From a virus, in IMG/VR virus record IMGVR_UViG_3300017951_002642, positions 1 to 35,594 of that record: a DNA stretch of 35,594 nt. The stretch is one strand, 5' to 3'. Of the stretch, positions 5,701-30,909 are shown one piece after another (the first letter of the stretch is position 1; each line of letters begins with the position of its first letter). Made by a program: the position numbers and the translations under genes. The notes under the pieces were generated by a model. The model did no database searches and was not told the DNA's origin. It saw only the letters and a program-made list of their open reading frames with translations.

Positions 5701-6818
5701 TGAAGATTGGTTTTGCGTCCAACGATTGGTCACGCTCTATGCACACTCATACTGGGTTGCCAGTTATGGGCGGTTCAGGTCATATCAGAATAGGTCAGTA
5801 TATTGCTCCTTTACGAAAAAGGGGCATTGATGTTGTCATAGGAATTTTAGCACACAATTCTATGACTGGCACTTTTGGTATTCATTCTTGGGATAACACG
5901 GGTGACCACTTTGATTGTGATGTTATTATTATGCAACGCTACATGCATCAGCAGGTTCTTCCCGATATGATACGTGCACAGAGAGTAGGGCAGATCATTC
6001 TTCAGGATGTTGATGATTGGTATTGGGGTTTAAGTAAAAAGAATGCTGCGTATTCGGCGTCTAACCCTAAACTCAATCCTGTGGAAAATATTGACTGGTA
6101 TCGTAAGATCATTGAACAGTCTGATGGAGTGATTACGTCTACACCTTTCCTACGGGACAAGATGCTTGAATGGAACGATAATGTTGGCTTACAAACAAAC
6201 TATGTCAATACGGCGCAGTTCAGAAATGTCTCTGAGTTTGTTTCTGATGATCCAATTAGGAAATTAGTTGTAGGGTGGATGGGTTCCACGGCTCACAGAA
6301 GCGGAGACTTAGAAATCTTAAAGCCTTTCGCTAACAAGGTTTCTAATTTTGCACGATTCCATCATACTGGTGATATTAAAGCACCAAATATTCCTAGGTT
6401 CCACAAAGAGATGGGACTGAGTGCGGGGATTGTGTCTACATCTCCCTTCTTACCTCCTCATTCTTTGCAGGAAGGTTTTCTTTTCAATGCTGGTATTGTG
6501 CCCCTGACTAATATTGCGTTCAATCATGCCAAGTCGTACATTAAGGGGTTGGAGTATGCTGCGGCGGGTATTCCTTTTGTAGCATCTTGGTCACCTCAAT
6601 ACGAGGAACTTGTGGAAACTCACGGTATTGGCCTGTTGGCTAGGGAGCCTTCAGAGTATGTATCGTTGTTGCATGATTTGGCAGATAACGATTACCGCAA
6701 AGAGCAGTCTGCATCGGTTCGCCAAAAAGTGAAAAAGTTTGACGTTAAGGTCGGTGCAGGTAATCTTTATACTTTAATTAAGAAGATGTACAAAGAGGCG
6801 TGGAATGAAAAGAGGTAA
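5700..6818 (+). CDS. Glycosyltransferase, GT-B fold, GT4-like
   Basis: A 372-aa glycosyltransferase of the GT-B type. The N-terminal half begins with MKIGFASNDW and a Gly-rich GGSGHIRIGQY loop; the linker carries the DVDDWYW motif seen in some phage and bacterial GT4 enzymes; the C-terminal half has VVGWMGSTAHR (nucleotide-sugar domain start) and KGLEYAAAGIPFVAS, equivalent to the GT4 donor-binding motif. It transfers a sugar from an activated nucleotide donor to an unknown acceptor. ATG 5700 overlaps the upstream stop; an in-frame start 12 nt earlier is less likely. It opens a run of overlapping sugar-metabolism genes. Confidence 0.82.
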   Translation: MKIGFASNDWSRSMHTHTGLPVMGGSGHIRIGQYIAPLRKRGIDVVIGILAHNSMTGTFGIHSWDNTGDHFDCDVIIMQRYMHQQVLPDMIRAQRVGQIILQDVDDWYWGLSKKNAAYSASNPKLNPVENIDWYRKIIEQSDGVITSTPFLRDKMLEWNDNVGLQTNYVNTAQFRNVSEFVSDDPIRKLVVGWMGSTAHRSGDLEILKPFANKVSNFARFHHTGDIKAPNIPRFHKEMGLSAGIVSTSPFLPPHSLQEGFLFNAGIVPLTNIAFNHAKSYIKGLEYAAAGIPFVASWSPQYEELVETHGIGLLAREPSEYVSLLHDLADNDYRKEQSASVRQKVKKFDVKVGAGNLYTLIKKMYKEAWNEKR

Positions 6819-11878: not shown

Positions 11879-12682
11879 ATGATTCACAACATTGCAGGAA
11901 ACATTGAAGGGCTAGCAGTAGATATTGACATGCTACAGCCGTTAGAAAACAACGCTAGGCGTGGCGATGTTGACGCCATCATGGCATCCTACTCTAAGTT
12001 TGGACAGGTCAAACCTATCGTCGCCGTAGAGAATGAGAGTGGGGCATTAACAGTTATTGCCGGTAACCACCAGTTAGAAGCAGCAAAGCGGTTGGGGTGG
12101 CAGCAGATTGCAGTGTCAATAGTTGACTTAGATCAAGAAAATGCACTGGCTTTTGCATTGGCAGATAACCGAATTTCTGAACTCGGTACTACTGATACTG
12201 ACTTGCTGTACGACATGCTGACAGAAACGATGGGATACGATGAAGACTTTTTTGAGGCTTTAGGCTGGGATGACTTTTCTGTCGCCGCCATCGAAAATAC
12301 TATCATCAGTGACTCACTAGGAAATGCTCCTGATCCCAATGCTGGATGGACTGCGCCGGAAATTGTAGTGAACGACATTTCTTCGACTCCAGCAGTGGAG
12401 AGTCAGCCTACTGTTCCTTCGCTACCTCCTTCGGAAGACAACGCTACTACTGCTACTCAGCCGGTTGCTGTTGAAAATATCGTGACTCAAGGAAGTACGG
12501 CGGCAGGCACATCGGGAACTAGAAATGCGGCTATCCAGTTCACTCTTGTTTTTGATAGTGCTGACCAGCAGTCTAAATGGTACTCTTTCCTAAAGTGGCT
12601 TAAGGAGAATCCCGTGTACGACGGTGATACCACTTCTGAGCGCTTACTAGATTTTATTGCCCAGCATTCCCCACGAGGTTAG
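11879..12682 (+). CDS. ParB-like nuclease-domain protein with C-terminal extension
   Basis: A 267-aa protein with an N-terminal ParB/sulfiredoxin-like domain (about residues 10-125): PLENNARRGD, YSKFGQVKPIVA, VIAGNHQLEAAKRLGW and ALADNRISELG are typical of the phage ParB families that accompany DNA-modifying enzymes. A Ser/Thr/Pro-rich linker (about 150-215) follows, then a compact C-terminal module (AIQFTLVFDS...WLKENP). It has no helix-turn-helix partition domain, so plasmid partition is unlikely. ParB-type domains bind nucleotide and some have nuclease or regulator roles. It is followed after 1 nt by the PAPS-reductase-like gene. Confidence 0.82.
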   Translation: MIHNIAGNIEGLAVDIDMLQPLENNARRGDVDAIMASYSKFGQVKPIVAVENESGALTVIAGNHQLEAAKRLGWQQIAVSIVDLDQENALAFALADNRISELGTTDTDLLYDMLTETMGYDEDFFEALGWDDFSVAAIENTIISDSLGNAPDPNAGWTAPEIVVNDISSTPAVESQPTVPSLPPSEDNATTATQPVAVENIVTQGSTAAGTSGTRNAAIQFTLVFDSADQQSKWYSFLKWLKENPVYDGDTTSERLLDFIAQHSPRG

Positions 12683-12683
12683 T

Positions 12684-13856
12684 ATGCCTAGACGGAGAAT
12701 GTTTTTGGACATGAACTGTGTCGATGCTGCCCGAGAGCGCATGAGGCATGTTTACGATACTTTTGATACTGTCTGCGTTCAGTTCAGCGGAGGCAAAGAT
12801 TCAACGGCCTGTTTGTATTTGGCAAAGGAAATTCACGAAGAGCGTGGCCTTGGCCCTGTCAAAGCCATTTTCCGTGATGAAGAAATGCTGTCCCCTGCGG
12901 TAGAGGATTATGTTACCCGAGTCAGTAACTATGATTGGGTTGACATGGAGTGGTATTGCCTTCCGCAAGGGCAAGAACTTTGGGTTTTAGGTAGACGCCA
13001 ATATGTGTTATTGTGGTCTAAGAATCGTGAGCGAAAAGGTCGGCTTTTCAGGCCGTTTCCAGAGAACGCTTTGCGGGCAGAGCACTTTGGTCTTGATCCC
13101 GAAAAAGCGATTCCTCGCAAGATTGACGAGTATACGATGCAGGGTAAGAAAGGACGCACTGCGTTTATTACGGGTGTTCGGGCCAACGAGTCTATGATTC
13201 GTTACAGGACGGTCACGCAGAAGTTACATGAAAACTATATCAACCGTCCATTTAAACTTTCAAAGGCAATTCCTTTAAGGTTTGCTAAAGTCATTTATGA
13301 CTGGACTTCTGACGACGTGCTTAAGTTTATCCATGAAGAGCACAACGGTGAGTACTGTGAGTACTACGACTATGCGGCCATGAGCGGGGCAAATCAAAGA
13401 GTCGGTATCCCTTTGCACTCTGTTGCGGCCCGACGCCTTTCAGATGTGCTACGAACCGAACCAGAGTTTTATGATGAACTGTATCGTTGTTTCCCCACAA
13501 TTGAGGCTCAGAGGCAGTTGTGGGCAGAGTTTGATATTGAAGCAGCAATTGATTTTTATGCAGAAGATGGTTGGAAAGGTGTGAAGAATTGCATTGATGA
13601 TAATGTTCTTACTCCCGGCTTACATAGAGCGGCGTTAGTTTATTCAAACGAGTTTAAAAAGAAGCACGCCAATGACCCGTATGGTTACCCTGTTGATCAT
13701 TTAATCCGAACACTTCTGCTAAACTCGTTTATGGGTTCTCCTAGTCCTGTAGGCCCAAAGACTAAAGCACACAATAAGCGTGTGGCTTTGTTAGAAGACG
13801 AAACCCAGCAGTTGATGGATGCCGACAGCCTTGACTGGCAAGACGATACACGGTAA
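12684..13856 (+). CDS. PAPS-reductase-like enzyme with DUF3440-type region, IbrA-like
   Basis: A 390-aa adenine-nucleotide alpha-hydrolase family protein. The PP-loop SGGKDST is at residues 35-41; ITGVRANESMIRYR and WTSDDVLKFI are further PAPS-reductase family motifs. The long C-terminal half (from about 235) matches the region called DUF3440 in IbrA-type proteins, which pair with ParB-like IbrB. Here a ParB-like gene lies on each side. The family activates sulfate or other groups through an adenylated intermediate, and relatives include DndC of phosphorothioate DNA modification; the substrate here is unknown. GAGG precedes ATG 12684; an in-frame TTG at 12657 is disfavoured. Confidence 0.85.
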   Translation: MPRRRMFLDMNCVDAARERMRHVYDTFDTVCVQFSGGKDSTACLYLAKEIHEERGLGPVKAIFRDEEMLSPAVEDYVTRVSNYDWVDMEWYCLPQGQELWVLGRRQYVLLWSKNRERKGRLFRPFPENALRAEHFGLDPEKAIPRKIDEYTMQGKKGRTAFITGVRANESMIRYRTVTQKLHENYINRPFKLSKAIPLRFAKVIYDWTSDDVLKFIHEEHNGEYCEYYDYAAMSGANQRVGIPLHSVAARRLSDVLRTEPEFYDELYRCFPTIEAQRQLWAEFDIEAAIDFYAEDGWKGVKNCIDDNVLTPGLHRAALVYSNEFKKKHANDPYGYPVDHLIRTLLLNSFMGSPSPVGPKTKAHNKRVALLEDETQQLMDADSLDWQDDTR

Positions 13857-14723: not shown

Positions 14724-15663
14724 TTCTTGGCTTTCTCTTGTAACTTCGACCGGCATTCTTGAATCGGCTAAGTCTTACGAATCGTTACTTAGTGCTGCTC
14801 ACGCTGACTATTCAGTAGTCACAAATCAGGTGTACGTCTATGACCGTTTTGTGGATACTTTTGTTCAGGTACCTAATAGGTTTGTCACCGGTCGTGAAAT
14901 TGACGAACGACTAGAGAACTGGGAAGTTGTCAAAGAGCGCTATGAGGTAGAGCAGAACCAAAAGATTTTAGAACGTGCCCACGCTTTAATTCGCAAGTAC
15001 AATGGTTCGGCAGATTTCACGGGATGTGGCGTACTTGATCATGGGCGTAAGTTCTTTGCTATAGTTCGTACTGGTTCGATAACTATCCCCACGTTAGATG
15101 AGGGCAATGACATCATTGACTCCTACGTAGTGGTCATGACCTCCCACGATGGTAGCATCCCTATTTGCTATTACAATTTGGATAGCAGGCGGTCGAATAA
15201 CACGACCTACAGGTTCGCAACCTCCCCGACATCAGAGTTTAGTATACGCAAACGTCACACACCTAGCGGTGCCAACCTAAACCAAGAGGCTACCGAAGCC
15301 TTAAACATGCGGACTAAGTGGTCTGACCATATGAGTTCTGCCATTGCAAAGTTGTTTGTTCCCACATCTGCTTCTGCTGTGGAAAAGACACTGGAAAAGT
15401 TTTGGCCGACCAAGTATGCTGCCACCGAGAAAAAGCGGGAGCACGCTGAAGGGGTTCACGAAACCATTAACGGACTGTACCGCAGTTCTCAAAACATTGG
15501 GTCTTTTGGGGAGTGCAGGTGGTCTTTACTTAATGCAATCAATGAGTATATTGACTTTCAACGAAATATATCTGACAAGGAAGCGGCTCAGCACTCTTTA
15601 GAGATTGACAATTATAGCCACCGGTTAAAGTTAAACGTGTTTGAATGGTTGAATACTGTTTAG
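14713..15663 (+). CDS. DUF932-like phage/plasmid protein
   Basis: A 316-aa protein of the DUF932 (phage/plasmid-like TIGR03299) type. Recognisable parts are the YDRFVDTFVQVPNRFVTGREID segment after the N-terminus and CGVLDHGRKFFAIVRTG in the centre, followed by a region of strands with RKRHTPSGAN and a helical C-terminus. Members are common in phages and plasmids; function is not settled. ATG 14713 overlaps mazG by 11 nt; an in-frame start 30 nt upstream is disfavoured. It converges on the ferredoxin gene with a 4-nt overlap of stop codons, so transcripts from the two strands collide here without an evident terminator. Confidence 0.75.
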   Translation: MTGNSWLSLVTSTGILESAKSYESLLSAAHADYSVVTNQVYVYDRFVDTFVQVPNRFVTGREIDERLENWEVVKERYEVEQNQKILERAHALIRKYNGSADFTGCGVLDHGRKFFAIVRTGSITIPTLDEGNDIIDSYVVVMTSHDGSIPICYYNLDSRRSNNTTYRFATSPTSEFSIRKRHTPSGANLNQEATEALNMRTKWSDHMSSAIAKLFVPTSASAVEKTLEKFWPTKYAATEKKREHAEGVHETINGLYRSSQNIGSFGECRWSLLNAINEYIDFQRNISDKEAAQHSLEIDNYSHRLKLNVFEWLNTV

Positions 15664-15926
15664 TCAACTTCGATGAAAATACATTCTCCGGGACACTCTT
15701 CTGCGGCATCAATTGTGTCAGCAAGCAAGTTTTCAGGAACTTCTGCCTGACCTTCCGCCATTTGATAAACAGGCCCATCTGCATTACCGTTTGGCCCCTT
15801 TACGTTCGGCCACTGCACTTCTTTAACATATGCTAAACCGTCATCGTGCATCTCAAAAATATCGGGGCAGATTTCTGCACACAGTCCATCCCCCGTACAC
15901 AAATCTTGGTCGATCCATACCTTCAT
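15660..15926 (-). CDS. Single-cluster ferredoxin
   Basis: An 88-aa electron carrier. C10-x2-D13-x2-C16-x3-C20-P replaces the usual second cluster Cys by Asp, as in Pyrococcus furiosus-type [4Fe-4S] ferredoxin; C78-P supplies the distal ligand, and C20 and C82 are extra cysteines. It may hold a [3Fe-4S] or a [4Fe-4S] cluster. Residues about 37-62 are a Pro/Gly/Asn-rich insertion. A strong GAGGAGG lies 5 nt before the ATG. It lies 9 nt downstream of the terminase gene on the same strand, so it is probably co-transcribed with it. No reductase or partner oxygenase is nearby; it may supply electrons to a host enzyme or the PAPS-reductase-like protein. Confidence 0.9.
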   Translation of the reverse strand: MKVWIDQDLCTGDGLCAEICPDIFEMHDDGLAYVKEVQWPNVKGPNGNADGPVYQMAEGQAEVPENLLADTIDAAEECPGECIFIEVD

Positions 15927-17452: not shown

Positions 17453-18912
17453 TGGCGTGGAACTCAGGTTCAAACAAATCCTTACAGAATATCAGTGATG
17501 GTCAAAAAGCGGCACCTATTTCTGTGGGTGCCCCCATCTCTTACAGTCCTTCTCTCGGGGAGAACCGAGGGTATCATGACGGCTGGGATATTACAAAGGC
17601 TTACCGAGACGGTGTTTCTAAGGTAACTTGGGTATTCAGATGCATTGATGTGATTGCATCTAATCAGGCCCGTCTGCCCATGATTTTCCGTAAGGACAAC
17701 AACCCATTTGGTGAAGTTGTTGCAAACAACCAGATGCTAAAACTTTTTAACAATACTGCTAATGACGGTGAGAATGCTTTCGCATTTCGGTATCGGCTTT
17801 CAGCACAGTTGCTTATGAGCAGCCGTGGTGCGTTTGTTGAAATTGTTCGTGGGCGTGGCGGGGCACCAATTGCTTTACACCTTCTCCCTCCACAAAACAC
17901 ATCCCCTATCCCAGATGTAACGAAGTTCGTTAAAGGTTTTGAGGTAAAGATTAACGCCACAGAGAAGCGTACCATTAAGCCAGAAAATGTTATTTGGATT
18001 CGCCGCCCCCATCCCCTTGACCCCTATCTGTCCATGACGCCTATGGAAGCAGCGGGGGTTGCTATCGAACTTGAAAATTTGGCTAAAGTTTACAACCGGA
18101 ACTTCCTGATTAACGATGGTCGCCCCGGTGGCTTGCTCGTTCTTCGTAGTGAAATTGCTGATGAAGACAAGGAAGAACTGCGATCACGGTTCCGTGGTAA
18201 TATTGGCCGAGCAGGGTCTGTCGGAGTTATTTCTTCTGACGACGGTGCAGATTTTGTTGATACCGCTGCTAGTCCACGTGATGCTGCTTATATCCAGATG
18301 CGCACAGTAACAAAAGAAGAGATTTTGGCCGCATTTGGCGTTCCTGAGTCTATCATTGGTAACTCCTCTAACCGAACATTCTCCAATGCCATGGAAGAGG
18401 GCAAGGTGTTTTGGATGGAAACAATGTCTCCTCACCTTGATTTGATCGCTCGCTCTTTCGACAAGATTGACGATACTTACTTCGTGGACTTTGATACTTC
18501 TAACGTACCGATTTTGGTGCTAGCAAAGCAGGAGCGGGAACGTCATTATTTGACTGAGTTCCAAACTGGTCTTATTAGTGCCAATGAGTATCGTGAAGCC
18601 TCTGGCCGCAAGCGGGTTGTGTCAGACATTGCTGATTCGTTGCTTTCCAACCCAAATCAGACTCCAATCGCTAATACCGAAAAGGCCATGAATGAGCAGA
18701 CCGGTGTAGAAAGTGGCGTCCCTCTAGACGTTCAAGCCCAAGAGGCACAGCAGTCCGTAGTGACCGAGTTTAGTCCTGAAGCGGGCGGTTTCGTAGAGGC
18801 TGGTACTGTAACCGGTACTCAAAATATTGAGGCTCCGGCTTCGGCTGTTCCGAGTGAACTTGAGGGAGATGAACCGGAGGGTAGGAAGAGCGCCCCTTTT
18901 CAACGAGCCTAA
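17452..18912 (+). CDS. Portal protein, HK97 type
   Basis: The dodecameric channel at the capsid vertex through which DNA enters and leaves. The 486-aa product has the phage portal (HK97-like) signature: WVFRCIDVIASNQARLP near residue 60, FRYRLSAQLLMSSRGAFVEI, a stem/crown region with KVYNRNFLINDGRPGGLL, and EEILAAFGVPESIIG near residue 300. After about residue 395 the chain becomes Ser/Glu/Pro-rich and low in structure. Its start overlaps the stop of the 52-aa membrane gene. Near its end lies a slippery CCCTTTT in frame-shifting phase, allowing some ribosomes to continue into the MuF frame and make a portal-MuF fusion. Confidence 0.95.
   Translation: MAWNSGSNKSLQNISDGQKAAPISVGAPISYSPSLGENRGYHDGWDITKAYRDGVSKVTWVFRCIDVIASNQARLPMIFRKDNNPFGEVVANNQMLKLFNNTANDGENAFAFRYRLSAQLLMSSRGAFVEIVRGRGGAPIALHLLPPQNTSPIPDVTKFVKGFEVKINATEKRTIKPENVIWIRRPHPLDPYLSMTPMEAAGVAIELENLAKVYNRNFLINDGRPGGLLVLRSEIADEDKEELRSRFRGNIGRAGSVGVISSDDGADFVDTAASPRDAAYIQMRTVTKEEILAAFGVPESIIGNSSNRTFSNAMEEGKVFWMETMSPHLDLIARSFDKIDDTYFVDFDTSNVPILVLAKQERERHYLTEFQTGLISANEYREASGRKRVVSDIADSLLSNPNQTPIANTEKAMNEQTGVESGVPLDVQAQEAQQSVVTEFSPEAGGFVEAGTVTGTQNIEAPASAVPSELEGDEPEGRKSAPFQRA
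18894..18900 (+). other. Slippery heptamer for -1 ribosomal frameshift
   Basis: In the portal frame the codons read GCC CCT TTT CAA, so the heptamer is C CCT TTT, the X XXY YYZ pattern in correct phase. Slipping back one base re-pairs CCT to CCC and TTT to TTT, giving the same Pro482-Phe483, after which reading goes on as Ser-Thr-Ser in the MuF frame. The portal stop is 9 nt further. A small stem CTAAA (18909-18913) / TTTAG (18923-18927) starts 8 nt downstream and could stimulate slipping, though it is weak. Confidence 0.7.
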
Positions 18913-19694
18913 AGTTTGGTGATTTAGCAAAGAATTCCCCGTGGGAGCAGAAAGCACTGTATCGGGTTGATTCTTTAGAGGCTCAGGTTTCTAAGCAGTT
19001 AGATGATATTATTGATTCTCAGGAAGAAGCAACTCTCGCTGCGATTGCGGCCCCCACAGCGACTGCTTTGTTAAATTTAGGAACGGATTCTAATTTTGCT
19101 TCTGTGGTTCCTATGACTGAGTTAGCCGTAAGCACTGCACCTTTACTCGCATCCATGCGTAGTATCTATGAGCAGGCGGTGTCCGACAACATTCAAGAAG
19201 GGTTTGGGGACACTGTAACAGAGCAACAGGCAGAAGCGGCAGTTTCAGAGCACATAGCCACGGTAAACGAATTCAATAGTACTACTCAAAATCAAGTTGC
19301 TCAGGCGTTGGGCGCTGCTTCTGTTGCGAAAGCAGAAGATGGCGGGGACATAGACGTTGCCTTTAAGGCTATTTTGGCGGCAACTTTAGTCAAAGCGGTT
19401 TTCAATAAATTACGCAGCAACCGCAAACGAATGATTGTAGATTCTGCTGTTTTAGGTCCTTACAATCAAGGGCTATTTGATTCTGCCAGCAATAGCGATG
19501 TTGCTTTGAATAAGCAGTGGATTTCATTAAAAGATGAGCGAGTTCGGATACCGCACAAGCAGTTGCATGGTGACATTGTGCCTGTAAGTAGCCCATTTTT
19601 TGTGAATGGCGTTCCAATTAGGTTCCCGAAAGACCCAGTTGCTCCGCCTTCATTAACTATCAACTGTCGTTGCGTGTTGAAGTTTACCAGATAA
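18900..19694 (+). CDS. MuF-like head morphogenesis domain, expressed by -1 frameshift from portal
   Basis: 264 residues after the slip site. The frame is open from 18885 but has no ATG, GTG or TTG until a TTG at 19068, which would discard a plausible 56-residue helical N-terminal part (WEQKALYRVDSLEAQVSKQL). The C-terminal part is a clear MuF/SPP1 gp7-type minor head domain: DERVRIPHKQLHGD, then FVNGVPIRFPKDP and the ending NCRC. Fused products would be 747 aa: portal residues 1-483 plus this domain. MuF proteins sit inside the capsid near the portal and are sometimes fused to portal in other phages. Alternative explanations are a CTG or ATT start, initiation at TTG 19068, or an error in the sequence. 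Confidence 0.8.
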   Translation, partial: STSLKFGDLAKNSPWEQKALYRVDSLEAQVSKQLDDIIDSQEEATLAAIAAPTATALLNLGTDSNFASVVPMTELAVSTAPLLASMRSIYEQAVSDNIQEGFGDTVTEQQAEAAVSEHIATVNEFNSTTQNQVAQALGAASVAKAEDGGDIDVAFKAILAATLVKAVFNKLRSNRKRMIVDSAVLGPYNQGLFDSASNSDVALNKQWISLKDERVRIPHKQLHGDIVPVSSPFFVNGVPIRFPKDPVAPPSLTINCRCVLKFTR

Positions 19695-19762: not shown

Positions 19763-19792
19763 ATTAATGTTGCAATGTCCTTAAGGAGAGTC

Positions 19793-21409
19793 ATGACTAC
19801 TTTAGTTGAGTACGCAGATGTCGTTGAAGACACTGATCCCGCATTTGATTTCAAAGCAATTTCCGGCCAGATCGGTATCGACAAGGCACAAGGCATTGTT
19901 GAAGCCTTTGTCTCAGGTATCGGCAATAAGGATTCAGTTGGCGATGTTGTCGTCTCTGGAGCGTTTAATGGCTCGTTGAAGCGCCGTAAGCCTCGTGTTG
20001 TTTGGGGTCACGACTGGAATCAGCCAATTGGTAAGGTTCTGGAAATTTACGAAGTTCCCAAGTCTGACCCTCGCCTTCCTGAAAAGATGAAGAGTGCCGG
20101 TATCGGCGGTCTTTTTGCAAAGGTCCAGTTCAATCTGAACACCGAGCGGGGACGTGAAGCGTTTGCGAACGTGGCATTCTACGGCATGGATCAGGAATGG
20201 TCAATCGGCTATAAGACGATTAATGCTGATTTTGACGCTTCTCGTCAGGCTAATATGCTTAAGGAAGTAGAACTGTACGAGATTTCTCCGGTTCTGCATG
20301 GGGCCAACCAGTTGACTGGCACAATCTCTGTAAAAGACGATAATGAAGGAACTTCTGAGAAGGGTGGAATGTACAACATGGATGACGACAAAGACGCTCC
20401 TTCCAATCGTGCAGATGCGATGTCTGCAATGATGGGGCGGATGCTTTCCCAAGCACTTCGTAAGCCGGTTCAAATTCTAGAGATTAATGACAATAGCGTT
20501 GTTTTCCAGACTGGCGAAAACATGATTTGGATGGCTACATTCAACCGTGAAGGTCAGCAGATCATGATTGGTAAGCCCACTCGTGTGAAGCCTATGACAA
20601 CTTATACTCCAATGGGAGATGCCGCACCTACGTCGATGATGGTGAAGGACCCAGATGAGAAGGATGCCGAAGAGCCTGAAGGTATTCGTGACGCTAATCC
20701 AGAGCAGGGAACTTGGGCTACGCCTGACATTGCTCTAGCATGGTCGAAGACTTTTGGCTGCTCAGGCTACCATTCACATGGTGGGGGCTATCTGCCCTGC
20801 GAGACACACGACGAGTACCTAGAGGCTCTTGAGAAGTTTGATGGAAACGCAAACATTAACTCCCACAACAACTATCTTGAAGGTGTTGAAGTGGAAGAAG
20901 CAAAGAGTGCTGGTTGTGGTTGCGAGTCTGAAAAAGATGCTTGTTCTTGCGAGACTGAGGAAAAGGGCCACATGATGCGTGGAGACCGTAAGCCTGATTA
21001 CCTTAAGGACCCGATGGCACTCTTGTTGATGGCCTATAACGAAATGCTCAAGATTCGTGGTGCTGGTGAAGTGCGTGAGGCCACCCTGTCTCTTATTAAC
21101 GAACTTGAAGATTTCTTGACTTCTGCTCCCATGTCTCGCCCGATGGAACAGGGTGAGAAGGTTACGTCAGGTTTTGTTGTGCACGTTAAGTGCTCTGACA
21201 ATGAAGCATTTGATGTAAGTGGTGCAGTTGCTGAGGTTCCTGTATTTACTTTCAAATCAGAGGATGGAGTTGACTTGCATTTCTCAACTAAGGTTGAGCA
21301 TGAAGAGTTGTTAGCCAAGGTTGCGACTGCTCTTGCCGGTTTGTCTTTTGATCCTGAGATTTCCGTTTCAAAGCCCGCCACCCTTGACACTGAAGACGGT
21401 GTTGAGTAA
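19793..21409 (+). CDS. HK97-type prohead protease with long C-terminal extension
   Basis: Serine protease (S78 family) that cleaves scaffold and capsid N-termini during head maturation. In the first ~185 residues, GIVEAFVSGIGNKDSVGDVV, H73 in VWGHDW and S137 in EWSIGYKT mark the catalytic core, and LYEISPVLHGAN ends it. The 538-aa product is far longer than the usual ~200 aa. The extension contains a strand-rich stretch (about 220-270), a Cys/His motif C323-x3-H327-x8-C336-x2-H339, an acidic Cys-rich patch (CGCESEKDACSC) and a C-terminal alpha/beta region. ATG 19793 follows AAGGAGAG; an ATG at 19775 is in frame but lies before this ribosome site. Confidence 0.9.
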   Translation: MTTLVEYADVVEDTDPAFDFKAISGQIGIDKAQGIVEAFVSGIGNKDSVGDVVVSGAFNGSLKRRKPRVVWGHDWNQPIGKVLEIYEVPKSDPRLPEKMKSAGIGGLFAKVQFNLNTERGREAFANVAFYGMDQEWSIGYKTINADFDASRQANMLKEVELYEISPVLHGANQLTGTISVKDDNEGTSEKGGMYNMDDDKDAPSNRADAMSAMMGRMLSQALRKPVQILEINDNSVVFQTGENMIWMATFNREGQQIMIGKPTRVKPMTTYTPMGDAAPTSMMVKDPDEKDAEEPEGIRDANPEQGTWATPDIALAWSKTFGCSGYHSHGGGYLPCETHDEYLEALEKFDGNANINSHNNYLEGVEVEEAKSAGCGCESEKDACSCETEEKGHMMRGDRKPDYLKDPMALLLMAYNEMLKIRGAGEVREATLSLINELEDFLTSAPMSRPMEQGEKVTSGFVVHVKCSDNEAFDVSGAVAEVPVFTFKSEDGVDLHFSTKVEHEELLAKVATALAGLSFDPEISVSKPATLDTEDGVE

Positions 21410-21435
21410 AATACTCACGAGCAATGGAGTTCAAA

Positions 21436-23436
21436 ATGAGTGAAAACATGAATGACGATCTTCAGAAGTTTGAGGATATTGAAGCGCTTATTTCCGTAGA
21501 GGAGAAGGGTGCTGACGAGGACGAGAAGGGTGCTCATGAAGATGAGAAGGGTGCGCCTTCTGTGTTCATGACTGACATCCGTTTCAAGGAAGCCGTTGAG
21601 GCTGGCGACCTTCTGGATGAGGCGGCGTTTGCTGCTCTTGATCCCGAAGACCAAAAGGGTTATGAGATGGTTAATGTTCTCAATGAAGAGACTAAGGAGC
21701 CGATGGGCTGGATGTTCCGCTTCAAGGCTGATGATGAAGATGAAGCCGAAGACGATGTTGACGAGGCTGAGGCTGAGGAAGCAGACGAAGATGAAGATGT
21801 CGATATGGTTGAAAAGGTTGCTCAAGCACTAGAGGCTGAGACCAAAGACGCTGATGACGACGCTGAGGTCGAAGAAGAGGCAGAAGAAGCCGATGCTGAA
21901 GAAGAGGCCGCTGAAGAAGAGGCCGCTGAAGAAGAGGTCGCTGAAGAAGAGGCCGCTGAAGAAGAGGTTGTTGCGGAAGAGGTTGTTGCGGAAGAGGAAG
22001 CAGACGCTGATGCTGAACTTCCTGATGATGCTGAAGACCCCGCTGAATCCGTTGATGTCAAAGCCGCATCAATCATGATGCGTATGGCAGGTCAGGAAGA
22101 AGAAAAGAAGCCTTCGATCTTTCTCACAGACGCTCGGTTCAAGGAAATGGAAGAGGACGAAGAACTCATTTCTGAAGAGAAGTACGGCGATCTAGATATG
22201 GACGCAAAAGAGTCTTACGAAGAAGTAGAAGTTTTTGAAGAGGGAACTGGCAAGGGATATGGCAAGCGCTACCGTCGCCGTAGTCCTCTGGAAGTAAACG
22301 CCATGCGTAAGGGCGGTCACATGGAAGACGAAGAAAAGTCTGAAGATGTCGAAGAAGTACAGGAAAAGGCTGAAGACATGGTTGACATGTTTGACACCGA
22401 AGAAGAAGCCCTTGAACGTGCTGCCGCACTTGGTTGCGAAGGCACGCATGGTGCCGGTGATAAGTTTATGCCTTGTGCTTCCCACGATGAATGGGAGAAG
22501 TTGACTGCTGCTAAGCCTGAAGATGGTGAAAAGTCTGAAGAGTTCTTGTGCGGTTTCCAGCGCAAGTCAGTTGCACAGCCGTGCGACTTCTGTCAGGGCG
22601 GTTGCGCTCCTGAAGATGGTCTTCCCGGTCTTGCAGATATTGAGACGGTTGTCAAGAGTGCTCACCCCGGTGAAGTTATCGGTTCGGGTTACTCATCGAC
22701 TGACGACATGTTCGTTGTTGATGTGAAGCGTGAAGACGGCACTTGCATTGAAGTGTTCTTGTCAGGTGAGGGCGACGAACTTGGTTGGTTGCGTGTTGAC
22801 GAGACAATCATTGATGGCAAGTCGGCTGAAGAGTTGACGATCATTTCTTCTTCAGACGCTGAAGCGGTTGCCGTGAAGGCATTTGACGACATGGAACTTG
22901 ATGCGAAGGGTGAAGTCATGGGTATCATGGTTGACATCTTCGCAGATGAAGATGTCTACGTTGTCGAAGTTGATTCTGAGCAGAAGAGTTTCGACTTCTA
23001 CGTTTCCGTGGAAGGCAAGGTGCTGGGCTACGACGAGTATGACATGCTTGACGACTTTGAGTACGACATGAGCGAAGAGGATGAAATCAAGGCTCTTGAG
23101 GCTGAACTTGAGATTAAGCGCATGTACTCTCGTGAGCAGCGTGAATCAATGGCTGAGTCTGGTGAGGCTATGGAAGATGGTTCATTCCCGATTGCGGATG
23201 AGGCTGACCTTAAGAACGCTATTCAGGCACATGGCCGTGCTAAGGATGTTGCCGCTGCAAAGGCACACATCGTGAAGCGTGCAAAGGAACTTGGTCTTGA
23301 AGAGATGATTCCTGAAGGCTTTATGGATGAGGCTGAAGCACCCGCTCCTGAGGCGGATGGTGAAAAGTCAGATGATGCCGAGTTGCTTTCAGCACTAGAT
23401 GAGTTCCGCACTCTTATGGAGGGTGAAGGCTCCTGA
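21436..23436 (+). CDS. Acidic scaffold-like head protein with repeats
   Basis: A 666-aa, strongly acidic protein between protease and capsid, probably a scaffold or internal head component. Order of parts: a module around residues 40-97 (PSVFMTDIRFKEA) duplicated at about 225-283 (PSIFLTDARFKEM), separated by a Glu/Ala low-complexity block made of 15-bp DNA repeats; a Cys/His motif C334-x3-H338-x8-C347-x2-H350; a Cys-rich LCGFQRKSVAQPCDFCQGGC segment; two PepSY-like alpha/beta stretches (about 400-530); and a C-terminal module DGSFPIADEADLKNAIQA with HIVKRAKELGL, seen in many actinophage head proteins. ATG 21436 with GGAG 6 nt upstream is preferred to ATG 21424. The role is inferred from position and composition. 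Confidence 0.75.
   Translation: MSENMNDDLQKFEDIEALISVEEKGADEDEKGAHEDEKGAPSVFMTDIRFKEAVEAGDLLDEAAFAALDPEDQKGYEMVNVLNEETKEPMGWMFRFKADDEDEAEDDVDEAEAEEADEDEDVDMVEKVAQALEAETKDADDDAEVEEEAEEADAEEEAAEEEAAEEEVAEEEAAEEEVVAEEVVAEEEADADAELPDDAEDPAESVDVKAASIMMRMAGQEEEKKPSIFLTDARFKEMEEDEELISEEKYGDLDMDAKESYEEVEVFEEGTGKGYGKRYRRRSPLEVNAMRKGGHMEDEEKSEDVEEVQEKAEDMVDMFDTEEEALERAAALGCEGTHGAGDKFMPCASHDEWEKLTAAKPEDGEKSEEFLCGFQRKSVAQPCDFCQGGCAPEDGLPGLADIETVVKSAHPGEVIGSGYSSTDDMFVVDVKREDGTCIEVFLSGEGDELGWLRVDETIIDGKSAEELTIISSSDAEAVAVKAFDDMELDAKGEVMGIMVDIFADEDVYVVEVDSEQKSFDFYVSVEGKVLGYDEYDMLDDFEYDMSEEDEIKALEAELEIKRMYSREQRESMAESGEAMEDGSFPIADEADLKNAIQAHGRAKDVAAAKAHIVKRAKELGLEEMIPEGFMDEAEAPAPEADGEKSDDAELLSALDEFRTLMEGEGS
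21895..21999 (+). repeat. Tandem 15-bp repeats coding for AEEEx
   Basis: Five near-identical units of GCTGAAGAAGAGGCC (last bases vary) from 21895 to 21969, followed by two diverged units starting GTTGCGGAAGAG up to 21999. They stay in frame and encode the Glu/Ala spacer of the scaffold-like protein. The antisense strand gives a long Ser/Ala open frame that is only a shadow of this repeat. Confidence 0.9.
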
Positions 23437-23453: not shown

Positions 23454-23633
23454 ATGAAACCCTCAGAAGTAGGGAAAAGAATTAGCCTTGCCAATGAAGC
23501 CCTTTTCAACGTCGGTTCTAGCGTGGTTCTTGGCTCAACGTACAATACGGACGAGGTAGAATACTTAGAGATTGGCGACGAAGTTTACGAGTTTAGACCT
23601 TTAGAGAGGTGTGGGGATGTCGATGCTGACTGA
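23454..23633 (+). CDS. 59-aa protein between scaffold and giant gene
   Basis: A small open frame starting MKPSEVGKRI and ending 17 nt inside the next gene. AAGGGTAGG lies about 6 nt before the ATG. The sequence is balanced and reads like a small folded protein (ISLANEALFNVGSSVVLGS, then acidic strands), not a random frame, and it exactly fills the gap between two long genes. Function unknown. Confidence 0.6.
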   Translation: MKPSEVGKRISLANEALFNVGSSVVLGSTYNTDEVEYLEIGDEVYEFRPLERCGDVDAD

Positions 23634-26600
23634 AATCAAGAGACCAGAAGTCGGTCCCAACGCAGATGCCCTAACCAGTCTTACTCGTGGCCGTGGTCCT
23701 CGGCGTGGTAATCTTGAAGAACTTTTAAAGTACTGGCGTCCTATTATGAAGAAGCCGGGAGGCTTTAGACGCTGTGTAGTTATTTTGATGGACAAGCCGC
23801 AGTTTGGTGGTAAGCCTCAGCGTATTTGCGCTTGGCTGCATCACGAAATTACTGGCAAGTGGCCAAACGAGGGTAAGGGCAAGCGTGGCCGTGGCCGAGG
23901 CGGAAAGCGCCGTAGCCGTAGTGTTCGTCGTGTTAGGAGCGCCGCTCGTCGTGCCAAGGCAGCACAGTTACTTTCGCACAACGAAATTGTTGAGGTTTCG
24001 CCTTTACGTATTGCTGTCCGTGAGTCTAGGGACTTCGGAGGGGTTTTAGTACAACCTATTGCTGGCCGTCAATCTGCTGTCGATATGAAGGCGGCTATGT
24101 TCGCCATGTATACTGCGAAGGTTCCGGTTAATGGCGAAGTCAGCGAAAAGCGTGTTGGTGTTTTTGGTAGTTCTAGTCGTGCGGGTCAGGCGGCTCAGGC
24201 GGCTGGTACAATTATTCTTCCGGGCGACATTTCAGATATTCGTAGCCCTATCCGGTCGCAGATTTATGAGACTTTGACTCCGGGCGGCGGTCGTGGGTTG
24301 CCGAGTGGCCGTCGTTTGATTCGTGGCGCTGGCCGTACTGGTAGGGGCGCACGCAATAAGTTCCGTTGCCCTCCGGGTTTCCAGAAAGGCGGCACTTTCA
24401 CGAACGCACAGTTCAGTACTTGTGGTGCACAGATTTTGGGCATTCCCGGTAAGGGTGTAGGTTCTCCTTCTTCTGGTGCTCAGCGTGCTTTGGCTGCTTT
24501 GGCTAGGGATGCTTCGCTTGTTCGTGAGATTGGCGATCTTCGCAGCAACCGTAATCCTTATGATATTATTCGTGCGGCGCAGATTCCTGTAGCACCTAAG
24601 AAGGGTAGCCCAACTCGCCGCCAGATTTCAATTAATACTGTTCTTGCCCGAGCCGACGAGCAAGACTTTTCAGTTCGTGCTGTCCGTAGGGATGGGGTTA
24701 TCCTTGAACCTGTTGTTTCGTTGCAGGCTCTTGGTAAACTTGATGAGTTTGACGATTTGGCTGATGGTACACTGATTGATCGTTATGAGAGCGGTCAAAT
24801 TGGTAAGGATATTGTTCCTGCTTTCTCTACCGGTCTTCGTGATATCTATGTTGATATTCCTGAGTCTGGTGCTGTACGTGTGAGTAGAGTTGGTGGAGAG
24901 TTGTCTCCTACCGAGGTTGAAAGTTTGCGTCGTGTGTTCCCGACTTCTTTGCGGCGTGCCGCAGACTTACCTGATCCTAGTGCCGCTATTCGTAATTATG
25001 CGGACGGGACAGACGGTAGGTTGACTGTTGAGTTTGGTGAACTTAAAAACAACAAATTTGAAGTTAGTGTTAATAAGAACGAGTTGATTCGTGTTCAGAC
25101 TGCTGGTGGCAAGTCGCTTACAGTTCCTCGCTGGGTGTACGAGACATTCTTGTCTCGGTCTGCTCCTCGTCGTGCAAAAGATGCACCTGTTTACGAAATC
25201 ATGTCAGAGGAGAAGACTTCAAACCCTTTTTTCTTGTCCACCAAGACGATTACATCTCTCACACATCGAACCGCTAACTACCACGAGTTGATTGAGGTTC
25301 GTGCTGCTATTTTTGCGGCTAACCGTGAAAACATTCAGGTAAAGCGTATTGGTGGCGGTCGTCGTGGTGGACGTGCTCGTGCGTTGTTTGATCCGGGCTT
25401 GAATCGTTACAGGTGTCCTCCGGGAACCCGTTATGGTGGACGTATTACTGACCAGTTTGGTCGTAACTGTGGCTATTCTCTTCCACGTACTGTTGTCAAT
25501 AGTCTTGTCGATCTAGGTATCCGTATTGAGGATGCTATGGAGAGGCGTCGTCAGCGCAGGTTGGAGCGGGGTTCTCGTCGTGAGCGGCTTGGTGCAGCGA
25601 TCAAGGAAAAGTATGATAACGCTTTGAATGGTCTTGCTGATGTCATGGATAAACTTGCTAACGTTTTGGATAAGACTGAGGATAAGCGTCCGGGGCAGAT
25701 TGGTCCTAGTATTGCTGAGCGCCGAAATGCTGCTCAGTTGACTGATGAAGATCGTGATTTGCTTAGTGGCGAGCCGTTGGCAGATGCGTTGGATAATTTA
25801 AAAAATGTGTTGGACGATCAGGACTTCCAGAATCCTGATATTCCTGAGATTCAGAAGGCGTATAAGGCTGTTGAGAAGGCTGCTGGTTTGGAGGCTGGCC
25901 GTCTTACTGATAATCCTGCGAAGAACGAGAAGGATCGCAGTATTGGTCGTCGTATTCTTGATTCTATTGCTAGCATCATGGATAGGTTGGCTAACTTTGT
26001 CGATCCTGACACTTCTCGCCGTGATCGACGTGATCGTCGTCCGGCTGCTTCTGCTGCTCCTAAGCCTAGTGCACCTAAGAAGTTTGATGCTCCACGTAAG
26101 CCTGAGAAACTAGACAACTTTAGTCAACTTTCGATTGGCGGTCGCCGTAAGAGGGTAGACGTTCCTGAACTTCGTGATTTATCTGATGATGATAAAGGTA
26201 AGGTAGATAACGCTATCCAAGCAGAGTTTAACCAGTTGTCCTCATTCTGGGCAAACCGCTTGGGCAAGGGTATCAACGATTTCTCTGAAAAGGATATTAA
26301 GAAGTATCTGAAGGCTAACAAGAATAGCAAAGATGCTCGTATTGAGCGTCGTCGGTATAACGACTGGCTGGAACTTAACGAGTTGAAGCGTGCTCAAGAT
26401 GACGGGTCGTTTGACGGGGATTATGAAGATTTCGTGGGTCGGCTTGCGCCGAACCGTCGTGATTCTATTATAAGTTCGATCAAGCCTCCTGAAGACCCTC
26501 CGGGTGATGCTGGGGATGCGGCTGGTGCGGTAGATATTGAAACTCCTGCTGATGAGTTGCCTTCTCCCGGTGTAGATTATTCTTCACAGGGTTTCACAAA

Positions 26601-29600
26601 AGCACGTGGTAATACACCCACTAATGAATTTTTGATGGGTCTTTCTGACGAAGATTTGGCGAACTACAAACAAGCCCACGAGGCTGAGATTGCTGCGCAA
26701 GAGGCTGCGGGGAATCCACCTAGTAAAGTTATGAAAGATCGTGTTACTGCGATCACTATGATTCAGGGTATGCGTGAAAAGGATAAGGGTGTTTCTAATC
26801 CGCCTCCCTCTACTAAAGATTTGTCTACGGAAGGGTTCTTTGAGGAACGCAACAAATTTGGTGAGTCGGTTAATAAGTTTATCAAGTCTTTGACTGACGA
26901 GGAACTTGACGGATACATTGAATCTTTTGATAAGAAAAATAATGATCCTCTTGAACCCCCTGCCACTCCGGGAATGCAGAAAGCCCGAGAGTTACTGGTT
27001 GCAGAACGTGATGATCGTGATGAGAAGGGTGTTCAGGCTGCTTTAGTTGATACCGCTGATTTAGAGATGGGCGATCCTGATCCTGACGGGTTCCATCCTG
27101 TTAACAAAGTAGAAGACACTGTAAATAACCCGGACCTGAACGATACCACGAATACGCCAGATACTATCATTAATGAATCGGCTGATGGCTACACAGGTAT
27201 ACCTAACAAGCAGGCCGCTCATAAATATGCAGAAGCAAGTTATGACGATAAGCCGTATACGCCAGAGGCTGTTGCTGCGGCTAATCCGGCTGCGTTGTTT
27301 AATGACCCTGATTTTGACATTAATGATAAGAAGACTCGTGTAGGTGTACTTGTTATTGACGAATCGACTGGTAAGGTTCTGCTGCGCCATACCGACAATA
27401 ACTATAAAGGTTACGGCTGGACTGTCAGTAAGGGCGGTATTGGTAATGGTGAGAATGTTGCAGAAGCGGCTTTACGTGAGTTAACAGAAGAGACCGGTGT
27501 AAGCGACGCTAAAATTGTTGGCGCTTTGCAGGGGTCTTTTGAATCTAAGCCCGGAACTGGCAGTAAGAACTATTTCTTTGTTGCAACGACAAATGCAGAC
27601 AATGATAGTGGATTTCAGGATGCTTTTAATTCTGGTTTGACTGGCCTTCCTGAAACCGACAATCTTACTTTTGCGACTCCTAGTGATGTGGCCGGATTGC
27701 TTGACGAAGATACAGAAAACGTTTTAGGTAAGCAACGTGACTTAAAGATTTTTGATGCTTTGGATGAGTGGGTTGCTAGCGGAGGAGTTTCTGGAGATAA
27801 GAACGAGTTCTTCCAGACCGCCATTAACAATGCGTATGAGTCGGACGCTAGCCCTGTTATTAAAACTAATGCGGCTGGGCCTGCGGACGACCCTGAGGCG
27901 GGATTGAAGCATACGCCTTCTTTGGTTCCGAACCAAGCAATGCTTGCGAAGTCAGATCAAACTGGATTACCTCTCAAGAAAGTCGCTGCTTTCACAGATA
28001 CGAAAGAAGACGAGAAGCGTTCTGCGGCTGCTCAGTTAATTGCAGATGTTGGCGTTGTCGATGCTTTGAACGACCCAGAATTTGTAGTAACCGACTTTGA
28101 TGTCAATGATGAAATATTTGACGCTATCAGCAATGGAGAGGTTGACCGATTTGATCCCATAACTGAGGGCATTGACATAGGTATTAACGGTCAGGTGGGC
28201 TATCCAACCAAAGTGTTCCGTGATAAAGAGAATGGTAATGTTTATATTCTCAAGAAGCCCGCTCGTAACGACAACGAACATTTGTCTGAGATTTCAGCGG
28301 CTATGGTTGCACAAGACTTGGGTCTACCTGTACCGGATGTAACTTTCTCTGGTAAGGCGTATGTTGTTTCGGGTGATGAAGTTGGTCCAATGGGTCAGAA
28401 GGTCACAAAGTTTGGTGACACGACTAATCGTCCTATGATTATCCAGCATGTTGGTAACGTTTTAAACATGAATGAAGGTAAAGGCGACAGTTTAAATCAT
28501 GCGCAGTTGGGCGCTATGCTTGCCCAACAATACTTAATTTCTGAACCTGACAATCATGGAGATAATAGGGTGAACATGGTTGACGCAGATGGCTTTATGT
28601 CTGTGTTTGCTTTTGATGCTGGCAAGGCGTTTATGCCGTATAAGTCTTCGTCTGGTAAAGAAGAATTCTTCGGTGGTCGTTTTGGTAAGTACATTGATGG
28701 CTTACCTTCTAGTGATCGTCGGGCTGTTATAGAAGAAGCCCAAAAAACGTTGTCTCGCTACGATGTGAAGTCTTCTAGGGACCGCATCATTGCCTCCGAT
28801 ATGGCTGACGCTAACGATTTGTCTCCTGAAGAGCGTGGAAGGCTTTCGGAAATTTCCGACTTTATTGGTGGACGCCACGCTGGTTGGCAGGCTGCAATGA
28901 GTAAAGATTTTGCGGATGCTATGATGTCTGAGGTTGATCTTGAGGATTCGCTTTCGACTCCAAAAGTCGTTACACCTGATACTACCCCTAAGGGTGGTAA
29001 AATGGTAGATAAGAATGCTGATCCACTTGATGTGAATTCTTATGCTCCCGGTATTGGTAAGGTTGCTGTTGGCTTGCAATTAGATCAGGACACGATTAAG
29101 GGTATTCAAAGCGCTCCGTCTCAGACGGCTATTAAGGCTACTAATACTAAGCGGTCGGATGGAATGCTGGTAGATTTACAGACCACTTTAGACGGTCCTG
29201 ACATCGTTAGTAGCCAGATGACTATTACCGACGGTATGGAGATTAATGTAGGTGACTTCGATAATCCATCTTATGTGAAAGCCACGGAATTCCGTGCAAA
29301 TTTAGAAGATCACACTTATGATCAAGTTGTTGAATTACTTGAAGCAAATCCTGATAAGATTTACAAAATAAAAGGAAGGGCTAACGGAGATAACGGGTCT
29401 AAGGGACTCCAGACGGTAGGTAACAGCCGTTTAGTTCAGTTCGGAGACGGCACTCAGAGTCAACCAGTTGTTTCGATGAGAGTGGACGAAAAAAATCGTG
29501 CGGATGCCCAAAATATATTAGATATCAGCCAGTTCCACGGTGAAAATATTACTGCTGGTAGTGTCGGTGGGGGGTTGAACTCTTCTGTTCCGGTCAATGA

Positions 29601-30909
29601 GGTAAAAAGTACAGATATTTATGTTGCAGACTTTGGTGATGTGAAAGTGATGCTGATGCCAGATTCTTATGGCAAAGAGGGTAGAACTAAATCTAATATG
29701 CACCGCCAAGTTAGGGTCTTTGTTACTGGCGACTCTAGAGAAAAGTTAAAAGGTGACGGAGCACAAGAAGCGATAGAAGACGCTATGGGGCGGATTGGTA
29801 TTGACGCTACTCCTCCAACTGAAGCAGAGATTAGAGATTCGGCTGCTAGGCGCTTCTTACGTCATACTACTTTACCTTCTAAGGCTGGGGCACCCGATGG
29901 TACATATGGTACAGGATATGCATCTAATCCAATACAAAATAAGGTACTTAAGAACTTAGAGAAGTGGGGGATTAGTCCTGAGGATTTGACTGTGACAATG
30001 GCTTCCGGTAAACCGAATGTTAGCCTATCTCAAGCGAAAGCAGCAGAAATTATTAGAAAGTCTAGCGGTGGTACAGGCCCAGATGCGCTGGGTAAACGAC
30101 TTCCAGTTTTCCATCACTCACAAAGTTATGTTTCCTTAGAAGTCGGTGAGACTCAAACAAAAGGTAATCCGTTGGCGGGCATAGGTCGCAGCGCCGGTAT
30201 AGATAAAGGTAGAGCAGAAAGATTTGTTAGCGACTGGTATTTAGACGGTTCAAGTTCTGGAGGTTTAGACAGGACCTTAAGCCAGAAGTCAAATTTCGGT
30301 TCTGGGATGTCAGTGCGAGTAGACATTGCTAATGGTACTTCTGACAACTACTACTTCACAGTCAATATGTCTGACGACGCAAGCAACCTTCCATTAACTG
30401 AAAACAGTTTCTATTTGTTTTCCGACATTGGTGTTGCAGACATGGAGGCACACTATATAAAATCAGACAATTATGGCCTTGAGCATCCGGGAGGTACTGG
30501 CACACGTGCGTCTTGGACTGCTGACAGCAACACTCCATTCAATAAACTTTTAGGGGAAGGAACTACTTTTGGAGATTACACTTCAAAAGGTCAAACCGAG
30601 TGGAAAAACGGGTTTGGTGTTGTGGGTAACATGGTTACGCCGGAAACTGTCAAGTTATTAGAAGAGACGGTCCGGGAACGCAAACTTACTGCCAGCGTGT
30701 TGAACCAGCAAAACGTGGTTTCTAGAAACGGGAACTCTGCAAGAATGATGGTTTGGATTGACGGTGCTGACGGCCCTGAATTGAGATGGGGTCCTCAGGT
30801 ATCCACGAACGAGTTGCTAACTGCTAATATGACTGGTAGACTGCCAGAGATTAAAGAACCGTCGAAAGATATCGTCCCTTGGCAGATATCGACTTCGGGA
30901 ATATCATAA
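23617..30909 (+). CDS. Giant (2430-aa) putative internal virion protein with Nudix and atypical kinase domains
   Basis: Single open frame of 7.3 kb between scaffold and capsid. Residues 1-110: a GGFRRC...CAWLHHEITGKWPNEGK module and an Arg-rich basic run. Two Cys motifs (RCPPG, at C251 and C600) each followed by GG and a later CG. Helical, charged linkers to about 1220 with an internal repeat (LMGLSDEDLANY / IKSLTDEELDGY). Residues 1273-1295: a complete Nudix box (G-x5-E-x7-REL-x-EE-x-GV). About 1530-1700: an atypical kinase-like domain with K1546/K1547, D1645-x-H-x2-N1650 and D1667-A-G, as in PI3/4-kinase and HipA-like folds. The last ~700 residues are unrecognised. ATG 23617 has GAGAGG 7 nt upstream. 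Probably packaged in the head, possibly ejected into the host; this is inference. Confidence 0.75.
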   Translation: MSMLTEIKRPEVGPNADALTSLTRGRGPRRGNLEELLKYWRPIMKKPGGFRRCVVILMDKPQFGGKPQRICAWLHHEITGKWPNEGKGKRGRGRGGKRRSRSVRRVRSAARRAKAAQLLSHNEIVEVSPLRIAVRESRDFGGVLVQPIAGRQSAVDMKAAMFAMYTAKVPVNGEVSEKRVGVFGSSSRAGQAAQAAGTIILPGDISDIRSPIRSQIYETLTPGGGRGLPSGRRLIRGAGRTGRGARNKFRCPPGFQKGGTFTNAQFSTCGAQILGIPGKGVGSPSSGAQRALAALARDASLVREIGDLRSNRNPYDIIRAAQIPVAPKKGSPTRRQISINTVLARADEQDFSVRAVRRDGVILEPVVSLQALGKLDEFDDLADGTLIDRYESGQIGKDIVPAFSTGLRDIYVDIPESGAVRVSRVGGELSPTEVESLRRVFPTSLRRAADLPDPSAAIRNYADGTDGRLTVEFGELKNNKFEVSVNKNELIRVQTAGGKSLTVPRWVYETFLSRSAPRRAKDAPVYEIMSEEKTSNPFFLSTKTITSLTHRTANYHELIEVRAAIFAANRENIQVKRIGGGRRGGRARALFDPGLNRYRCPPGTRYGGRITDQFGRNCGYSLPRTVVNSLVDLGIRIEDAMERRRQRRLERGSRRERLGAAIKEKYDNALNGLADVMDKLANVLDKTEDKRPGQIGPSIAERRNAAQLTDEDRDLLSGEPLADALDNLKNVLDDQDFQNPDIPEIQKAYKAVEKAAGLEAGRLTDNPAKNEKDRSIGRRILDSIASIMDRLANFVDPDTSRRDRRDRRPAASAAPKPSAPKKFDAPRKPEKLDNFSQLSIGGRRKRVDVPELRDLSDDDKGKVDNAIQAEFNQLSSFWANRLGKGINDFSEKDIKKYLKANKNSKDARIERRRYNDWLELNELKRAQDDGSFDGDYEDFVGRLAPNRRDSIISSIKPPEDPPGDAGDAAGAVDIETPADELPSPGVDYSSQGFTKARGNTPTNEFLMGLSDEDLANYKQAHEAEIAAQEAAGNPPSKVMKDRVTAITMIQGMREKDKGVSNPPPSTKDLSTEGFFEERNKFGESVNKFIKSLTDEELDGYIESFDKKNNDPLEPPATPGMQKARELLVAERDDRDEKGVQAALVDTADLEMGDPDPDGFHPVNKVEDTVNNPDLNDTTNTPDTIINESADGYTGIPNKQAAHKYAEASYDDKPYTPEAVAAANPAALFNDPDFDINDKKTRVGVLVIDESTGKVLLRHTDNNYKGYGWTVSKGGIGNGENVAEAALRELTEETGVSDAKIVGALQGSFESKPGTGSKNYFFVATTNADNDSGFQDAFNSGLTGLPETDNLTFATPSDVAGLLDEDTENVLGKQRDLKIFDALDEWVASGGVSGDKNEFFQTAINNAYESDASPVIKTNAAGPADDPEAGLKHTPSLVPNQAMLAKSDQTGLPLKKVAAFTDTKEDEKRSAAAQLIADVGVVDALNDPEFVVTDFDVNDEIFDAISNGEVDRFDPITEGIDIGINGQVGYPTKVFRDKENGNVYILKKPARNDNEHLSEISAAMVAQDLGLPVPDVTFSGKAYVVSGDEVGPMGQKVTKFGDTTNRPMIIQHVGNVLNMNEGKGDSLNHAQLGAMLAQQYLISEPDNHGDNRVNMVDADGFMSVFAFDAGKAFMPYKSSSGKEEFFGGRFGKYIDGLPSSDRRAVIEEAQKTLSRYDVKSSRDRIIASDMADANDLSPEERGRLSEISDFIGGRHAGWQAAMSKDFADAMMSEVDLEDSLSTPKVVTPDTTPKGGKMVDKNADPLDVNSYAPGIGKVAVGLQLDQDTIKGIQSAPSQTAIKATNTKRSDGMLVDLQTTLDGPDIVSSQMTITDGMEINVGDFDNPSYVKATEFRANLEDHTYDQVVELLEANPDKIYKIKGRANGDNGSKGLQTVGNSRLVQFGDGTQSQPVVSMRVDEKNRADAQNILDISQFHGENITAGSVGGGLNSSVPVNEVKSTDIYVADFGDVKVMLMPDSYGKEGRTKSNMHRQVRVFVTGDSREKLKGDGAQEAIEDAMGRIGIDATPPTEAEIRDSAARRFLRHTTLPSKAGAPDGTYGTGYASNPIQNKVLKNLEKWGISPEDLTVTMASGKPNVSLSQAKAAEIIRKSSGGTGPDALGKRLPVFHHSQSYVSLEVGETQTKGNPLAGIGRSAGIDKGRAERFVSDWYLDGSSSGGLDRTLSQKSNFGSGMSVRVDIANGTSDNYYFTVNMSDDASNLPLTENSFYLFSDIGVADMEAHYIKSDNYGLEHPGGTGTRASWTADSNTPFNKLLGEGTTFGDYTSKGQTEWKNGFGVVGNMVTPETVKLLEETVRERKLTASVLNQQNVVSRNGNSARMMVWIDGADGPELRWGPQVSTNELLTANMTGRLPEIKEPSKDIVPWQISTSGIS

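Follow-up and report, generated by a model that had tools for sequence, protein, structure and literature searches.

The portal-MuF junction

The window analyzed here, i.e., the whole stretch of viral DNA under study, comprises 35,594 nucleotides (positions 1 to 35,594 of IMG/VR record IMGVR_UViG_3300017951_002642) and includes a phage head module, in which a portal gene is followed by an overlapping open frame for a MuF domain (Table 1). The Phage_portal profile matches residues 60–383 of the first product, which form the portal core (E = 1.4e-55, Pfam). The product of the second frame matches Phage_Mu_F with 40.3 bits against a curated cut-off of 29.6 (Pfam), as well as head morphogenesis proteins in PHROG (6.3e-25), and its CRC and DP motifs are invariant in the MuF alignment set A3. 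Directly 5′ of the open MuF frame lies a TAG (18882–18884), and the earliest ATG, GTG or TTG within the frame is a TTG at 19068. The heptamer CCCTTTT is located inside the overlap of the two reading frames and in phase with the 0 frame, where it is read as part of the portal codons CCT (18895) and TTT (18898), with the portal stop codon 9 nt past it. An initial annotation had proposed that a programmed −1 frameshift at this heptamer fuses the portal protein to MuF; all of its coordinates, the −1 direction of the shift and the lengths predicted for the two products (486 aa and 483 + 264 = 747 aa) agree with the window sequence. It overlooked the conserved internal Shine-Dalgarno sequence upstream of the heptamer.

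Table 1. Features of the portal-MuF junction and the adjoining head gene (positions in the window).
Feature	Position	Strand	Evidence or remark
Portal protein gene, 0 frame, 486 aa	17452–18912	+	Pfam Phage_portal, PHROG portal
Internal Shine-Dalgarno GGAGG, proposed stimulator, 13 nt upstream of the heptamer	18876–18880	+	Conservation, duplex energy
MuF frame (−1), open; post-slip translation from 18900, 264 codons plus stop	18885–19694	+	
Slippery heptamer C CCU UUU (X XXY YYZ of the portal frame)	18894–18900	+	CCCTTT in 44/44
Portal stop TAA, used by non-slipping ribosomes	18910–18912	+	
Start-less MuF coding segment, from portal stop to first possible start	18913–19067	+	pN/pS, conserved helix
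Phage_Mu_F domain PF04233, with C-terminal CRC motif	19413–19679	+	5.8e-10
Prohead protease (S78) gene, downstream, head-module marker	19775–21409	+	PF04586, 6.8e-14

The prohead protease could also cleave a portal-MuF fusion. Between it and a giant ORF, a very acidic protein of 670 aa without a PHROG match is encoded in a scaffold-like position (21424–23436, +). The giant ORF itself (2432 aa; 23611–30909, +), flanked by the gene for the acidic protein and that for the major capsid protein, contains a NUDIX domain and has a weak HipA-like match. Further upstream, auxiliary genes for a phosphoadenosine phosphosulfate reductase and a glycosyltransferase (12657–13856 and 5688–6818, both +) were noted, as well as a small ferredoxin-like ORF (15660–15926, −), which was judged by its cysteine pattern alone.

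Relatives of the junction

Relatives were collected from IMG/VR as 80 portal relatives with 61–100% identity, complemented by sets from two divergent queries and by a pattern scan. They collapse to distinct junctions with MuF in the −1 frame (44), with a continuous portal-MuF ORF (10, including five cultured actinophages), without MuF (8), or with MuF in another frame and with its own ATG (4); the 44 junctions share kinship, i.e., their number does not equal a number of independent events. Another eleven contigs stop short of the end of the portal frame and were left out of this classification. Among annotated public phages only distant relatives were found, and the best-matching ones that were opened have a continuous portal-MuF ORF. 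A nucleotide search of cultured phages returned short matches only, and a host search in GTDB genomes gave only four matches, all of them to metagenome-assembled genomes of mixed taxonomy.

In all 44 distinct −1-frame junctions the CCCTTT is invariant and in the same phase, while the surrounding codons vary, as the initial annotation had anticipated for a genuine slip site; no relative that reads MuF by a −1 shift lacks the heptamer. At the seventh position, 33 junctions have T, 10 have A and one has C. GAGG is found upstream at the exact spacing of 13 nt in 44/44 junctions, extended to the full GGAGG in 36, and the duplex of GGAGG with the anti-Shine-Dalgarno sequence is computed at −9.8 kcal/mol. 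The signal is retained in relatives with as little as 61% identity in the portal and about 33% in MuF. Apart from a single exception, contig L164, the combination of Shine-Dalgarno sequence and heptamer is missing at the 10 continuous, the 8 MuF-less and the 4 own-ATG junctions. A relative with a normal MuF start had been named beforehand as evidence that would speak against frameshifting. Such relatives do exist (the L039 group, in which the MuF ATG lies 14 nt upstream of the point where the portal stop codon ends), but they form a clade that has lost the heptamer, so that signal and frame covary.

The conserved Shine-Dalgarno sequence is the proposed stimulatory element of the signal and presumably promotes slippage. 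A downstream hairpin or pseudoknot was rejected as the stimulator: no conserved stem-loop or pseudoknot was found there among the relatives, and z-scores are near zero. Slippage efficiency may be modest because such a conserved structure is absent. A hairpin between GGAGG and CCTCC was likewise rejected, since the CCTCC half is not retained in the clade of the window (GCGCCC, GACCC). The most divergent frameshift member, L084 (5473–5500), has a weaker Shine-Dalgarno sequence (GAGGAT), lacking the full GGAGG. It is also the only one whose heptamer is closely followed by a strong hairpin (AGGCCCTTCCAAGGGCCT), and one stimulator may have been exchanged for the other.

Selection at the nucleotide level and in the start-less segment

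The codon preceding the slip encodes any of seven amino acids (L, A, V, D, H, R or G), and its wobble base is always C, a base that accounts for 18% of wobble positions in the portal genes of the relatives. Over the ten portal codons that lead up to the slip, 22 sequence pairs show 5 synonymous differences vs. about 79 expected, and the windows of synonymous change at the slip site are the lowest across the entire portal alignment of 612 columns. Of the 20,821 other codon positions in these genes, 4 have an in-phase CCCTTT, and its presence at the junction is more than chance. The portal codons after the heptamer, on the other hand, vary in number (2–19) and content. By the evidence of these alignments, selection acts on the nucleotides and not on the peptide of the portal tail. 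Conservation at the junction thus goes beyond what the protein requires, a property by which programmed −1 frameshifting is recognized.

Between the portal stop codon and the first TTG, most differences among close relatives fall on third positions of MuF codons (pN/pS 0.03–0.28), a pattern that is absent from the other two frames; these substitutions indicate that the MuF segment preceding the first start codon is under purifying selection. The segment encodes a helix (model residues 17–52, mean pLDDT 85.5) with the conserved pattern W-K...SLE...LD..D.QE, which is partly common to the continuous fusions L080, L226 and L227. Initiation at 19068 would remove this modeled helix. The MuF model has matches among predicted structures of minor capsid and head-morphogenesis proteins, and neither sequence search nor Foldseek retrieved a solved structure of a relative. 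No MuF start codon near the portal stop is conserved among the −1-frame relatives, whose first standard starts are scattered over codons 17–77 past the slip.

A probable programmed −1 frameshift and its alternatives

Taken together, conservation, selection and the correlation of signal with gene layout strongly support the proposal of a programmed −1 frameshift in the 3′-terminal part of the portal gene, which would yield the portal protein and the portal-MuF fusion; we put its probability at about 0.94. The slip itself, its efficiency and its purpose are what we infer from comparing sequences. While the ribosome sits on CCU UUU, its 16S rRNA would pair with the GGAGG 13 nt upstream, and tRNA-Pro and tRNA-Phe would slip in tandem from CCU/UUU to CCC/UUU. 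Translation would then proceed in the MuF frame to the end of the fusion, and non-slipping ribosomes would terminate three codons later, releasing the shorter portal form. In Escherichia coli, the efficient heptamers include those of the type H_HH.U_UU.Y, to which C_CC.U_UU.U belongs (PMC4066793). In dnaX, slippage is likewise promoted by pairing of 16S rRNA with a Shine-Dalgarno sequence upstream of the heptamer (PMC5009743; PMC3711429).

GGAGG is also a strong Shine-Dalgarno match as such, and in the L039 group a MuF ATG adjoins the portal stop codon. MuF might accordingly be an independent product of internal initiation or termination-reinitiation, for which GGAGG would serve as ribosome binding site and the start codon would be non-standard or lie downstream. 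This is very improbable: the only codons of the MuF frame located 4–10 nt from GGAGG are GAA, GAG and CGC, the first standard starts of the relatives are scattered, use of the first start in the window would remove the conserved helix, and the fixed CCCTTT and its phase would be left unexplained. The same codon phase, together with the fixed Shine-Dalgarno spacing, is not accounted for by transcriptional slippage, in which RNA polymerase would insert or skip a base on the C/T run and thereby produce some mRNA with the fusion in one frame. The window does contain short homopolymer runs (CCCCTTTT); however, the runs differ between relatives, with CCCTTTA reducing them to runs of three. Homopolymer runs at the junction are shorter than transcriptional slippage usually requires, and we regard this explanation as slightly less probable still.

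Cultured relatives as a rule have continuous fusions, which might suggest that the window merely holds a sequencing or assembly error, or a fusion gene that has decayed by frameshift. This explanation is the least probable of all, as the identical frame relation recurs in the 44 distinct junctions from many samples and purifying selection is seen on either side of the junction. A base error, which the initial annotation had considered, is excluded by independent contigs, among them the near-identical L001, whose junction sequence is the same as that of the window.

Gene layouts across the group

Layouts cluster on the portal tree, with four changes vs. 18.7 in shuffles. The continuous fusion may be ancestral because it is present in outgroups, with the reservation that the root of the portal tree is uncertain. 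In one group of close relatives (L025–L038, L052, L054) MuF is missing; PSESAL forms the C-terminus of the portal protein, whose gene is immediately followed by the next one. Protein and Pfam searches of the MuF-less contigs of 35–66 kb, which may be fragments, found no MuF elsewhere, and a control contig was positive. The exceptional contig L164 (4787–4810) carries GGAGGGT and CCCTTTA in phase, yet has MuF in frame 0; its −1 frame ends seven codons past the slip, and slipping would yield the shorter product. The arrangement could be a two-product layout in inverted form or a relic, or it could stem from a one-base error in this single contig. In L229 (5001–6989), the MuF part of a continuous portal-MuF ORF ends early and lacks the C-terminal CRC motif.

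Relation to known systems

Among actinophages, continuous portal-MuF fusions are known from Streptomyces phage Gilgamesh (gp46), from the Microbacterium phage clusters EA3, EA5, EA8 and EB, and as PHROG 2662 (PMC7302621). They share with the predicted fusion two domains in identical order on one polypeptide, and the portal domains are homologous. However, in the actinophages MuF is in frame and present on every portal subunit, whereas the window requires a frameshift and is predicted to give both forms. With the dnaX signal, the junction shares a tandem slippery heptamer and an upstream internal Shine-Dalgarno sequence (at 10 nt in dnaX vs. 13 nt in the window; PMC5009743). In contrast to dnaX, the heptamer is a different one, the group of the window has no conserved downstream stem-loop, and the slip gives the longer product instead of the shorter. 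The signal of the window would thus work like the Shine-Dalgarno part of dnaX, and it is not classed as dnaX-type since the stem-loop of that class is lacking.

Programmed frameshifts in phages are known for the tail chaperones G/GT, the major capsid proteins of T3 and A2, and the SPP1 tail tube protein gp17.1* (PMC5009743; PMC6316719). As predicted here, a slip near the stop codon of a structural gene generates a minority form with a C-terminal extension, but none of these cases involves a portal gene or a MuF extension. In SPP1, the portal protein gp6 brings a few copies of the MuF protein gp7 into the procapsid; gp7 is dispensable for assembly but required for infection to be efficient, and without it only about 25% of virions are infectious (PMC6316719). 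Unlike the covalent fusion predicted for the window, gp7 is a separate product that binds the portal non-covalently. The authors of PRFect make the general point that frameshifting may join, in certain phages, genes that exist as fusions in other phages; they also mention MuF with VIP2 (PMC10885494). No prior report of a portal-MuF frameshift was found in the open-access literature, to which the search was confined, and the frameshift route to a known portal-MuF fusion, predicted here for a family of uncultured tailed phages, appears to be undescribed.

Implications for MuF delivery

The most likely purpose of the frameshift, considering the SPP1 case, would be to bring MuF covalently into the head on a minority of the 12 portal subunits. 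Synthesis of the fusion by a minority of ribosomes would result in a low MuF copy number as in SPP1, but with MuF covalently attached, and stoichiometry control by frameshifting is plausible. The absence of MuF in one group of relatives fits dispensability. The broader hypothesis is that the frameshift sets the MuF-bearing share of the 12 subunits and that, as layouts switch, MuF dosage at a single vertex becomes evolvable and readable from DNA; we consider the odds for and against it to be even. Switching refers here to delivery modes, namely continuous fusion at 100%, a minority made by frameshifting, a separate gene, none, and possibly the inverted arrangement of L164. The group offers natural comparisons for the function of MuF and the copy number that is needed, because relatives fuse it at 100%, encode it separately, or lack it. 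For annotation, simple gene calling would begin MuF at the wrong internal codon (19068) and miss the fusion. The proposed frameshift predicts a mixed portal ring with countable MuF domains. With it, the portal, i.e., the symmetry-breaking ring of the head, would join the phage genes that use programmed frameshifting.
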